From contig NZ_CP147505.1 in assembly GCF_037201915.1 (NCBI RefSeq), positions 1,302,001 to 1,366,000 of the forward strand: DNA of 64,000 bases, read 5' to 3'. The DNA comes from Haloplanus sp. CK5-1 (GTDB taxonomy: Archaea; Halobacteriota; Halobacteria; Halobacteriales; Haloferacaceae). Numbering within the stretch: position 1 is the stretch's first letter; each line of letters begins with the position of its first letter. The notes under the pieces are model-generated. The model had not been told where the DNA came from. It ran no database searches and saw nothing but the letters and a program-made list of their open reading frames with translations. The translations under genes were made by a program, and so were the position numbers. Positions 34,411 through 37,903 of this stretch are shown here, piece after piece.

Positions 34411-35760
34411 TTACGACGTTCGCTCGCTCGCAGCGGTGATCCACCCGCGGATCCGTCCCTCGTCGATGTCGGCGTCCACGGAGAGTTCGACCGGATCGGC
34501 GTCCGCGAGGTCCTCGACGGCGTCGACACCGGCAGAGCGCAGGCGCTCGGCGTAGGCGGGGCCGATGCCGCTGAGTTCCTGCAGGTCGGTGCCGGGGTCG
34601 TCGGCTCCCTCGGCTCCCTCGGGGTCTTCGACGTCTTCGGCCGCCTCGTCCACCTCCGCGTCCTCGCTCTCGACGACCGATCGCTCGGCGAACCAGTCGG
34701 CCACCGCGGGCCAGAGATCCTCGTGGGTGGACCCCGACACCGACAGGCCGATGTGGCCCGTGGAGTACTCCATGATCTCGGTGTCGTCGCTCGCGACTCT
34801 GTCGTTGAACGGCTTACTGGCCTCCGGCGGAATGAGGTGGTCGTACTCGCCGATCACCTGCAACACCGGCATGGTGATGTCGTCAAGGTCGACCCGCTCG
34901 CCGTTCAGTTCGAGTTCGTTCCGGTAGAGTTTGTTCCCCTGGTAGATGTCCTCGAGGAACTGCCGGTAGGCGACACCGGCGACGTCGATGGAGTCGTCGA
35001 GCCACCGCTCCATGCGCGCGAAGTTCTCCACGAAGTCCTCGTCGTCGATGTTGTCGTAGAGGGTGCCGTACTTCGTGACGTAGTTGTGGACCGGGTCCAT
35101 CAGGGCAAAGCCCACGTCGAGGAACTCCCCGGGGACGTTGCCGAAGGTGTCGACGATGGTCTCGGGGCTGAAGAAGTCCTCGTCGCCCCACATCTCGAGG
35201 ATGCCGCCGGTGCCGTCGAAACAGAGGCCGGCCGCCATCAGCCCGAGGTTGCGGACCTTCTCGGGGTGGAGCGCGGCGTACATGACGCTCATCGTCCCGC
35301 CCATGCAGTAGCCCAGCAGGTTGATCGAGTCTTGGCCGGAGCGCTCGCGGACCTCGTCGACACAGTTGTCGATGTAGCGGTTGACGTAGTCGTGCAGCGA
35401 CAGCGACGTATCGAGGTCGGACGGTTCGCCCCAGTCGATCAGGTAGACGTCGAAGCCGGCCTCGAGCATCCGGCGGATGACGCTCCGATCCGGCTGGAGA
35501 TCGAGGATGTACGGTCGGTTGATCAGCGCGTAGACGAAGAGGAGGGGTACGTCGTGACGCTCCTCCTCCGGAACCAGCGGTTCGTAGTGGTGGAGTTCGA
35601 GCTTGTTCTCTCGGTACACCACCTCGCTCGGCGTCTCGCCGACTTCGACGTCGGTCATGGTCTCGAGGCCGTCCGGGATGGCTCCGACCGACTCCGTCTC
35701 GTCGGCCGCTTGCTCCCAGAGTTGGCGCTGGGCGTCCAGCGGGAATGTGAAGGGATTCAT
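34411..35760 (-). CDS. phaC: Polyhydroxyalkanoate synthase subunit PhaC (class III) with HhH tail
   Basis: 449 residues. The alpha/beta-hydrolase core polymerises hydroxyacyl-CoA into PHA granules together with PhaE. The lipase-like box is 'GYCMGG' (catalytic Cys152), with Asp307 in 'GEYDHLIPP' and His336 in '[10 protein letters not shown]'. After an acidic linker a helix-hairpin-helix module ('[31 protein letters not shown]' in pieces, about residues 392-449) ends the protein, which bacterial class III PhaC lacks. It could help granule binding to DNA or protein. The ATG overlaps the phaE stop (ATGA). Confidence 0.96.
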
Positions 35761-36299
35761 TGCTGGTCGAGCAACTCGTCGAGTTTGCCCTCGATGGCGT
35801 GCTGGCGGCGTTCGAGTTCGACGAGCCGTTCACCCACCTCGCGGACGTCGCCGACGGTGGCGAAGTTGAGCGCGTGGAGCGTCTCCTCGGAGGCCTCGTC
35901 GATGTTCTGGCGCATGTTCATCGCCTCCTCGACGGTCTGTCCGGTGGCCGCCGCGAAGGCGGTGGTCGTCATCATCTCCTTGAACGCCTCGTTTGCCGAG
36001 GAGAGCCAGATGTCGCGAAACTCCCCGGGCTCGACGTCCTCGCCCTGGAGGGAGTCGCCCATCCGCTCGAAGGACGTCTCCGCGGCGTCCATCCAGGCCT
36101 CGTAGGCCTGCATCGACCCCTCGTACCCCTCCCGGACGCGGTCCTCGGAGAGGTTGTCCTCCATGGAGTCCATCCAGGATTCGAGAAACGCCGACTGCGC
36201 GTCGAGGTTGCGGTCGAGCGCGCTCATGTACGTCTCGGTCATGCGCTCCAGAAACGCGTCCATCTGTCCGTCGTAGGTGCTGCTAGTGTTGTCTGTCAT
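35757..36299 (-). CDS. phaE: PHA synthase subunit PhaE
   Basis: 180 residues, all-helical and acidic. It carries the haloarchaeal PhaE features '[52 protein letters not shown]' in pieces, then a C-terminal heptad region '[24 protein letters not shown]' for coiled-coil binding. With PhaC it forms the active class III synthase. The start is at 36297-36299. It is coupled to phaC by an ATGA overlap and preceded by phaP at a gap of 41 bases. Confidence 0.93.
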
Positions 36300-36340: not shown

Positions 36341-36811
36341 TTACGCCGTCTGCGAGAGGTCCTCGGCGGACTCGACGGCCTCTTCGGTCGTCTCCTCCGC
36401 AGTGGCCTGGACCTCTTCGGCGGCGTCGAAGCCTTCGGCGACGAGTTCGAGCTGCATCTCGGTCAGCTCGTCGTAGGTGGCCTCGGCCTCGTCGAGACCC
36501 TCGAGGAACGACTGCCAGGCGTCCTCGTGGATCTCGTCGACGGCCTCGAACTGCTCGTCGACTGCGGCTTCGAGCTCCTCGACGGACTCCTCGGGGAGCA
36601 CCGTCGCGAGGCCGTCGAGGTAGGCGTTGACGGCGCTCTTCGAGAGCGTCACGCCGCTCTGCTGGACGGACTTGGCCGACTCGAAGGAGTCGAACCACGT
36701 CTCGATGGCGGCGCGCTGGGCGTCGATACCGGTCTCGGCGGCACGGCGGCTCTGGTCGATCATCGTACGCTGCATCTCGAAGGCCGAACTGAACGGGTTG
36801 GTAGCACTCAT
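36341..36811 (-). CDS. phaP: Phasin PhaP
   Basis: 156 residues, helical and acidic, beginning 'MSATNPFSSAFEMQRTMIDQSRRA'-like. It has a long amphipathic stretch 'EELEAAVDEQFEAVDEIHEDAWQSFLEGLDEAEATYDELTEMQLELVAEGF' in pieces. Phasins coat PHA granules and control their size and number. It lies between phaR (gap 5 bases) and phaE in one operon. The assignment rests on composition and position, since phasins have little sequence conservation. Confidence 0.88.
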   Translation of the reverse strand: MSATNPFSSAFEMQRTMIDQSRRAAETGIDAQRAAIETWFDSFESAKSVQQSGVTLSKSAVNAYLDGLATVLPEESVEELEAAVDEQFEAVDEIHEDAWQSFLEGLDEAEATYDELTEMQLELVAEGFDAAEEVQATAEETTEEAVESAEDLSQTA

Positions 36812-36816
36812 TGTAA

Positions 36817-37128
36817 TCACTCGGAGTTTCGTTTGACGGGGATGACGATGGTCTGCACGATATCGCCGTCGTCGATGTCGAGGGTTTCGCGCTCGGCGTC
36901 GGGAATGCTGATGCGACCCCCGCTCTGCACGCGGGTCTTGAACATCGCGGTTCCCATGCTCATCGCGCCGAGTTGCGAGAACCCGTCGAACCCGCCGCCA
37001 CCGCCGGACACGAACTGCTCGAACAGCTGCATCTGGCGTTCGACCGCGTCCTCGCCGGCGTCCTGAAACGACTGGGCGAACGGCATGGGCGGCCACAGCG
37101 GCGATCCATCGTCGTCGTCTTGCGTCAT
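36817..37128 (-). CDS. phaR: PHA operon regulator PhaR (AbrB/SpoVT-type)
   Basis: 103 residues. The C-terminal part 'KTRVQSGGRISIPDAERETLDIDDGDIVQTIVI' (in pieces) is a swapped-hairpin AbrB DNA-binding domain. The N-terminal part is acidic and Phe/Gly-rich and may contact the granule. In haloarchaea such a protein represses its operon until granules titrate it. The ATG at 37126-37128 is chosen because a TATA element (37156-37163, minus strand) is about 32 bases upstream; the in-frame ATG at 37146 would be too near to it. A half-site of a candidate operator lies just upstream of that TATA box. Confidence 0.9.
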   Translation of the reverse strand: MTQDDDDGSPLWPPMPFAQSFQDAGEDAVERQMQLFEQFVSGGGGGFDGFSQLGAMSMGTAMFKTRVQSGGRISIPDAERETLDIDDGDIVQTIVIPVKRNSE

Positions 37129-37155: not shown

Positions 37156-37251
37156 GCATAAGCTTTACTTTCGTTACCTCTCTATACCAATCAGAGACAT
37201 TGAATGGTTACGGCCGGGTACACCCGGTGACGAAAGCGACCAGTCTTTAAC
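37156..37251. promoter_or_regulatory. phaR/maoC divergent promoter with symmetric operator half-sites
   Basis: On the minus strand the phaR TATA element GCTTATGC covers 37156-37163. On the plus strand the maoC TATA element CTTTAACC covers 37245-37252. CTTTCGTTACC (37168-37178) and GGTGACGAAAG (37226-37236) form an inverted repeat with one mismatch in 11, each about 5-9 bases upstream of its TATA element. A third related site, GGTTACG (37206-37212), lies in between. This is the pattern expected of a single regulator (PhaR is the candidate) controlling both directions. Confidence 0.55.
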
Positions 37252-37276
37252 CGACCACGACAAAGGACTACACAGC

Positions 37277-37903
37277 ATGCAAGAACGCTCACCAACGCCG
37301 ATGGGTGGCCTCACGGACGCGTGGCTCCAATCGGGGAAACACTTCTCGAACAGCGTCGAACACTTCTACAACAGCGTGATGGCGGCCAACCGGGCGATGC
37401 TGCCGGACGGCGACGACGGCCGCCAGCCTGCCGAATCGCCCGGTGTAACCTACTCCAAGGCCGAGTGGTCGTTCGACCACTCCGACGACGGGGATGGGAT
37501 CGTCAGCGTCGGCGACCGAATCCGATTCTCGAAGTCAGTCACCGAGGAAGAGGTCGGCGTGTTCGCCGACGCCAGCGGCGACACGAACCGACTCCACCTC
37601 GACGACGAGTTCGCCGAGGGGACTCGCTTCGGCCGACGGATCGCCCACGGGACGCTCGTCTCGGGGCTCATCAGCGCTGCGCTCGCCCGCCTGCCGGGGC
37701 TGACGATCTACCTCTCACAGGATCTGCAGTTCCTCGGCCCGGTCGACATCGGGGAACGGGTCACGGCAATCTGTGAAGTCGTCGAGGACCTCGGCGACGG
37801 CCGCTACCGACTGACGACCGTCGTCGAGGACGAGGACGGCGAGACGGTGATCGACGGGGAGGCAATCGTCCTCATCGACGACCGTCCCGACGAAGACGCC
37901 TGA
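37277..37903 (+). CDS. MaoC-type (R)-enoyl-CoA hydratase (PhaJ-like)
   Basis: 208 residues. A hot-dog domain with the hydratase signature: 'FADASGDTNRLHLDDEFAEGTRFGRRIAHGTLVSGLISA' in pieces, where the Asp and His are catalytic. An N-terminal extension of about 80 residues ('AWLQSGKHFSNSVEHFYNSVMAANRAML' in pieces) is phasin-like and could bind granules. It makes (R)-3-hydroxyacyl-CoA from enoyl-CoA and so feeds PHA synthase. The ATG at 37277 is 28 bases after a TATA element, so leaderless; it is divergent from phaR. Confidence 0.92.
   Translation: MQERSPTPMGGLTDAWLQSGKHFSNSVEHFYNSVMAANRAMLPDGDDGRQPAESPGVTYSKAEWSFDHSDDGDGIVSVGDRIRFSKSVTEEEVGVFADASGDTNRLHLDDEFAEGTRFGRRIAHGTLVSGLISAALARLPGLTIYLSQDLQFLGPVDIGERVTAICEVVEDLGDGRYRLTTVVEDEDGETVIDGEAIVLIDDRPDEDA

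Follow-up and report, generated by a model that had tools for sequence, protein, structure and literature searches.

Which control element lies in the 148-bp spacer between phaR, phaP, phaE and phaC on the minus strand and the divergent MaoC-domain gene that runs from 37277 on the plus strand, and which of these genes does it serve? The question is raised by a window of 64,000 nucleotides from Haloplanus sp. CK5-1, this being the whole stretch of DNA analysed, whose positions are used throughout. The order phaR-phaP-phaE-phaC with a divergent maoC/phaJ1 is found here and is annotated likewise in Haloferax larsenii. A sequence-only reading had placed in the spacer a symmetric operator, made of two inverted 11-bp half-sites with a third site between them, to which PhaR would bind at both promoters. 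The features of the locus are listed below.

34411 to 35760, minus strand: phaC, class III PHA synthase (TIGR01836, 406 bits against a cut-off of 365)
35757 to 36299, minus strand: phaE, class III PHA synthase subunit (PF09712, E 2.8e-10; the start codon is our own reading of the open reading frame)
36341 to 36811, minus strand: phaP (phasin), 156 aa, assigned from its operon position and from a second phasin-like protein that is 30% identical
36817 to 37128, minus strand: phaR, 103 aa, with an AbrB-type C-terminal domain (alignment, PDB profile match and homologue annotation)
37158 to 37169, minus strand: phaR promoter core, TATA element GCTTAT and BRE-like AGTAAA, 5-6 bp from slot 1
37175 to 37179, no strand assigned: slot 1, TACCT, within the left arm of the earlier reading; TACCA in 8/12 Haloplanus genomes; called at four or more of five bases in 130/137 aligned arrays
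37185 to 37189, no strand assigned: slot 2, TACCA, 10 bp from slot 1; invariant in 12/12 Haloplanus genomes; called in 129/137 arrays
37195 to 37199, no strand assigned: slot 3, AGACA, degenerate in the genus; a called slot in 103/137 arrays order-wide
37205 to 37209, no strand assigned: slot 4, TGGTT, in reversed orientation, the third (GGTNACG) site of the earlier reading; called in 68/137 arrays
37226 to 37236, plus strand: right arm of the earlier reading, GGTGACGAAAG; GGT in 4/12 Haloplanus genomes; not accepted as an operator unit
37232 to 37250, plus strand: maoC/phaJ promoter block GAAAGCGACCAGTCTTTAA, with the TATA-like TCTTTAA; largely conserved in a 12-genome Haloplanus spacer alignment
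37277 to 37903, plus strand: maoC/phaJ1, MaoC-like enoyl-CoA hydratase, divergent (PF01575, E 2.6e-20)

The phaP product has no Pfam or NCBIfam match, and PhaC carries a C-terminal helix-hairpin-helix domain (PF14520, residues 392-444). The 12-bp block upstream of phaR, whose parts we take to be BRE and TATA, occupies columns 0-11 of the 137 aligned arrays, with A in 96% at column 2, T in 96% at column 7 and C in 93% at column 10.

The inverted repeat itself is real. A direct sequence check finds CTTTCGTTACC at 37168-37178, GGTGACGAAAG at 37226-37236 and GGTTACG at 37206-37212, while a repeat search gives the two arms as 10/11 complementary with 47 nt between them. The left arm is near a TATA-like block on the phaR side (37158-37169, minus strand), and the right arm is near TCTTTAA on the maoC side (37244-37250). 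As a pair, however, the arms are hardly exceptional. The sequence GGTNACGAAAG, allowing one mismatch, has three matches across the 64 kb of the window, where 3.6 would be expected, and an inverted 11-mer pair with at most one mismatch arises in 17/400 dinucleotide shuffles of the 148-bp spacer, so the symmetric pair stands at the edge of chance. Twelve Haloplanus genomes, every one with PhaR, were compared at the same place; the arms are 10/11 complementary in two of them, 8/11 in five and 4-7/11 in the other five. On the left, TTACC is kept in 12/12 genomes and CTTTCG in 3/12. On the right, GGT is kept in 4/12, and seven of the twelve are within one mismatch of GGTNACGAAAG; this GACGAAAG-like conservation argues against calling the right arm plainly not conserved, and we read the conserved part as probably belonging, together with GAAAGCGACCAGTCTTTAA, to the maoC promoter. 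The symmetric two-arm operator was rejected on these grounds of conservation and chance level, and looping over about 50 bases is likewise not supported.

What the spacer does hold is an array of four slots, each 5 bp long and reading either TACCA or the exact reverse complement of this, TGGTA, which follow each other with an exact 10-bp period beside the phaR BRE/TATA. The array was compared across 138 haloarchaeal phaR upstream stretches, a non-random set of tool-ranked best PhaR matches and 80 stretches hand-picked across genera, out of a pool in which a PhaR match was found in 234/392 genomes of the order and 41/148 of the family. Left out of the counts were L001, L002, L003 and L006 (the same genomes as G116, G024, G114 and G123), the distant paralogue L064 and L090, which is identical to L007; L201 came without upstream sequence, and L005/L081 and L010/L131, being the same genomes, are counted twice among the 138. 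Without any alignment, pairs of 5-mers close to TACCA/TGGTA number 297 at 10 bp against 7.9 in shuffles, 195 against 7.1 at 20 bp and 102 against 6.4 at 30 bp. A 10-bp pair is present in 132 of the 138 stretches.

A motif search aligned 137 of these stretches, with no array from L135, which is accordingly absent from the register counts. The search sets one offset per sequence, so that the spacing from the TATA block is in part a product of construction, but the 10-bp period is not. In the aligned arrays, ACCA falls at columns 18, 28, 38 and 48 in 104, 89, 34 and 8 cases, and TGGT at columns 17, 27, 37 and 47 in 8, 22, 46 and 49, with little of either between the register columns within the array. 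TACCA and TGGTA fill the same five bases, so that a slot can be inverted without being shifted; TACCA prevails in slots 1 and 2, and TGGTA in slot 4. The order TGGTA before TACCA is uncommon, with 0, 4 and 2 cases for slots 1-2, 2-3 and 3-4, although relatedness among species inflates such counts. Hybrids TGCCA and TGGCA are also found. A slot fits the degenerate dyad TRSYA and the 5-bp gap fits TYNRA, each reading the same on the other strand. Four slots are called in 43 arrays, three in 71, two in 22 and one in a single array. Slot 3 of the window has a form peculiar to the genus and conserved within it, AGACA in 11/12 Haloplanus genomes and AGACG in one.

These results explain what the earlier reading had seen. 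Its left arm holds slot 1 and its third site is slot 4, both genuine units of the array that is conserved order-wide when the spacer is compared in other haloarchaea, as that reading had proposed; its right arm and its two-arm symmetry do not share in this conservation. The inverted repeat is mostly a coincidence that overlaps a real, conserved slot array. The right arm was also tried as slot 5 or 6, as its CGGTG (37225-37229) keeps to the 10-bp register at a distance of 50 bp from slot 1, yet a TACCA/TGGTA call is present at column 57 in just 8 of 137 arrays and at column 67 in just 4, and the candidate was dropped.

The array belongs to phaR and probably not to maoC, judging by comparison of the loci. 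Its distance to the aligned phaR start has a median of 46 bp (IQR 45-51), whereas the maoC ATG lies anywhere between 29 and 510 bp from it over 55 loci. Among 20 spacers of at least 200 nt, the 95 nt on the phaR side hold 81 slot matches against 41.3 in shuffles, with 41 pairs at 10 bp; no array was found near maoC in the same spacers, where there are 27 slot matches against 29.0 shuffled and no pair at 10 bp. A divergent MaoC gene was found at 121 of the 137 array loci. Of the 16 others, 12 had just 650 bp of flank and four (L004, L009, L011 and L048) had at least 1.5 kb, and in these four the array is kept with no MaoC gene found. The near-fixed distance to phaR, the variable distance to maoC, the bare maoC side and the MaoC-less loci together mark the array as phaR's own.

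In view of this, it is most improbable that PhaR occupies a pair of inverted 11-bp half-sites, 47 bp from each other, at both promoters and so keeps phaRPEC and maoC in step, with looping as one conceivable means. Such an arrangement could draw on the existence of the repeat, on the partial conservation of GACGAAAG and on the register of CGGTG, but it is opposed by arms complementary in just two genomes, by the near-empty columns 57 and 67, and by a maoC side without an array at an unconstrained distance. The earlier claim that one element coordinates the granule genes with maoC is not supported by the maoC-side evidence. The related claim that MaoC supplies (R)-hydroxyacyl-CoA is at odds with what the available text of PMC4823750 and PMC7137286 reports for H. 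mediterranei PhaJ1, a role mainly in PHA mobilization. A more modest form of sharing would have the one array serve both divergent genes in Haloplanus, repressing phaR and affecting maoC 35-40 bp away with no right-arm site. The Haloplanus spacer is short (148-164 bp), which leaves some 35 bp between slot 4 and the maoC TATA; far longer spacers, of up to 554 bp, are found elsewhere, and the four MaoC-less loci keep the array. We regard this sharing as less likely than not. Near the maoC TATA, a slot-like GACCA at 37238-37242 is conserved in Haloplanus (GACCG in one genome) and lies outside the 10-bp register.

The array in the window is among the weaker ones, with AGACA in slot 3, and in its own genome alone it would not stand out. 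It scores 15, a value reached by none of the 317 other 200-bp tiles of the window, and matched by 21/2000 shuffles of this single spacer; the case is built on comparison across genomes. A profile built from 61 arrays finds the phaR array in 12/12 Haloplanus genomes and has a single match in the window, at this array, with 14.3 bits and a genome-wide E of 0.136. Its second match in the same genome (G000:C1:727068, E 0.65) and weak matches in G024 and G046 have no pha gene nearby and were taken as chance. A strict direct-repeat pattern gives one match in the genome, at G000:C1:611377, against 2 + 1 for the reversed control pattern, and so carries no information on a second site.

The same array recurs outside phaR operons. 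When the profile was run with a cut-off of E <= 5e-4 on 195 genomes of the order, under filters that the array of the window itself does not pass, 30 had a match, and 26 of the 30 fetched loci were phaR loci. Of the remaining four, three (L179, L181 and L189) lie beside a phasin-like gene. The fourth, L188, has a three-slot array-like match at about 1503-1531 (G171:C1:2527837-2527866), away from pha genes, with a downstream ORF that presumably encodes a phosphoglycerate mutase, by resemblance. In one Haloplanus genome a second, stronger array (L145:1511-1545; G062:C1:872385-872423) stands directly upstream of an unlinked gene whose phasin-like product is 30% identical to PhaP. This second phasin has a C-terminal extension that looks helix-hairpin-helix-like by eye and resembles the PF14520 stretch of PhaC.

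Upstream regions of unlinked phasin-like genes were scored in the same manner, 20 of the regions having been hand-picked from phasin matches. L230 and L231 scored but lie within phaR operons and were removed by hand, which reduced the set from 28 to 26. Twelve of the 26 score at least 14 and eight at least 15, as compared with 2.5% and 0.2% of 1120 shuffles of the same DNA and with 1/317 and 0/317 window tiles; the other 14 are without a clear array. Judged by genus tag, profile matches and phasins scoring at least 15 together span eight genera (g1, g33, g41, g55, g61, g70, g80 and g81). On this distribution, the same array very probably also controls distant phasin (granule-coat) genes in related species.

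The protein most likely to bind the array is PhaR, as the earlier reading had proposed. The window PhaR matches no Pfam family even at E <= 10. Other comparisons bear on an AbrB-type fold. The last ~40 residues of PhaR are nearly invariant in an alignment of 12 homologues. Records of homologues carry the annotation AbrB/MazE/SpoVT. A profile of 12 PhaR sequences searched against the PDB hits the swapped-hairpin protein 2glw (PHS018) at E 8.8e-8, and SpoVT (2ro5) at just E 0.64. A low-confidence AlphaFold model (mean pLDDT 57.6) has SpoVT and the AbrB N-domain among its top fold matches, at E 0.33 to 5.2, which is supportive at most.

The DNA side points the same way. The AbrB consensus is given as two TGGNA motifs 4-5 bp apart in the accessible parts of PMC8552724 and PMC11497800, though by the former it does not fit the B. 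cereus group. The slots contain TGGNA-N4/5-TGGNA, with TGGTA/TACCA units (two or more) separated by 5-bp gaps; as in the Bacillus subtilis AbrB operator, TGGTA fits TGGNA, and the N5 form has the same 10-bp period. The regulators also belong to one fold class, and AbrB is described as cooperative on long sites (PMC4022651, in part). AbrB differs in being global and in using loose, AT-rich sites, whereas the slots of the PhaR array, four in number, keep a strict register beside an archaeal BRE/TATA, and targets are few.

Known haloarchaeal data agree with this assignment. The repeated cis-element directly upstream of the phaR BRE/TATA that marks the haloarchaeal phaRP module is present in the window. 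As far as the accessible text goes, the H. mediterranei phaRP promoter contains four sequences repeated in tandem, to which PhaR most likely binds (PMC9049629), and, just ahead of the BRE, a negative element of semi-palindromic form (PMC6085418); element binding, repression and release by PHA are reported for its PhaR (PMC9049629, PMC7137286). The array corresponds to this putative PhaR site (Cai et al. 2015, AEM 81:373, through the papers that cite it), the two sharing the same genes, the place immediately upstream of the phaR BRE and the repeated units, a likeness of description rather than base by base. An array bound mainly by another regulator, for example PspR or a general repressor, with only an indirect effect of PhaR, is unlikely. 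PspR did bind the H. mediterranei phaRP promoter by ChIP and EMSA, according to the part of PMC10948481 available, but the same source describes that binding as weak, the array tracks phaR and phasin genes, and its TGGTA slots and period match the TGGNA-N5-TGGNA of AbrB. With PhaR as the preferred ligand, the earlier reading was right on place and ligand, and wrong on architecture.

The observed features, namely an array of fixed period and register, its place in the spacer, its conservation and its reappearance at phasin genes, fit the following mechanism, in which we have considerable confidence: the spacer holds a phaR-phaP autorepression operator, with PhaR on four slots spaced by 10 bp, released by granule titration and shared with some unlinked phasins. 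PhaR would use its AbrB-type C-terminal domain to bind the four slots, which adjoin the phaR BRE/TATA on the upstream side. The exact 10-bp spacing places all slots on one face of the helix, and since slots and gaps fit the TRSYA and TYNRA dyads, the arrangement suggests a local two-fold contact at each slot and cooperative binding of neighbours side by side, not a single large palindrome. Bound PhaR would block recruitment of TBP/TFB or of the polymerase. PHA granules would titrate PhaR away, which would lift the block on phaR-phaP, and in some species the same array may also control unlinked phasin genes. Binding, repression, stacking and titration are what we infer for Haloplanus; repression, ChIP and titration have been reported for H. 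mediterranei.

A similar logic is known from bacteria. PhaR of Cupriavidus and Paracoccus is a granule-bound, PHA-responsive autorepressor that controls phasin and is released by PHA. It works alike, and no test run here gave a relationship, the window PhaR having no Pfam match. Moreover, bacterial phaP and phaR have independent promoters, unlike haloarchaeal phaRP, in the available text of PMC9049629.

The operator is of a known kind in a new genus; what is added is a slot grammar that holds across the order, along with a small regulon of phasins. In describing the H. mediterranei element, the citing papers, as far as these are accessible, mention neither a 10-bp register shared across the order nor reversible slots nor targets at unlinked phasin genes. 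No literature on an order-wide PhaR grammar or unlinked phasin targets was found, which is weak evidence of novelty as most subscription papers fell outside the search. At a broader and more speculative level, haloarchaeal PhaR and bacterial AbrB might share an ancient rule, a 5-bp pseudo-dyad slot TRSYA (TACCA, TGGTA, TGCCA or TGGCA) in either orientation every 10 bp, with PhaR as a cooperative row and the array defining a regulon of phaRP and unlinked phasins across haloarchaea. If true, slots that are indifferent to flipping would account for the preference of an AbrB-type protein with two-fold symmetry for directly repeated TGGNA units.

For the locus itself, the proposed operator moves from the two outer arms to the slots at 37175, 37185, 37195 and 37205. 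The grammar of four reversible 5-bp slots with a 10-bp period beside a BRE/TATA predicts PhaR targets in any haloarchaeal genome. The predicted targets include unlinked phasin genes, which may be useful for PHA-producing strains. Furthermore, the array would connect a regulator from archaea with AbrB proteins, whose rule of DNA recognition is poorly understood.
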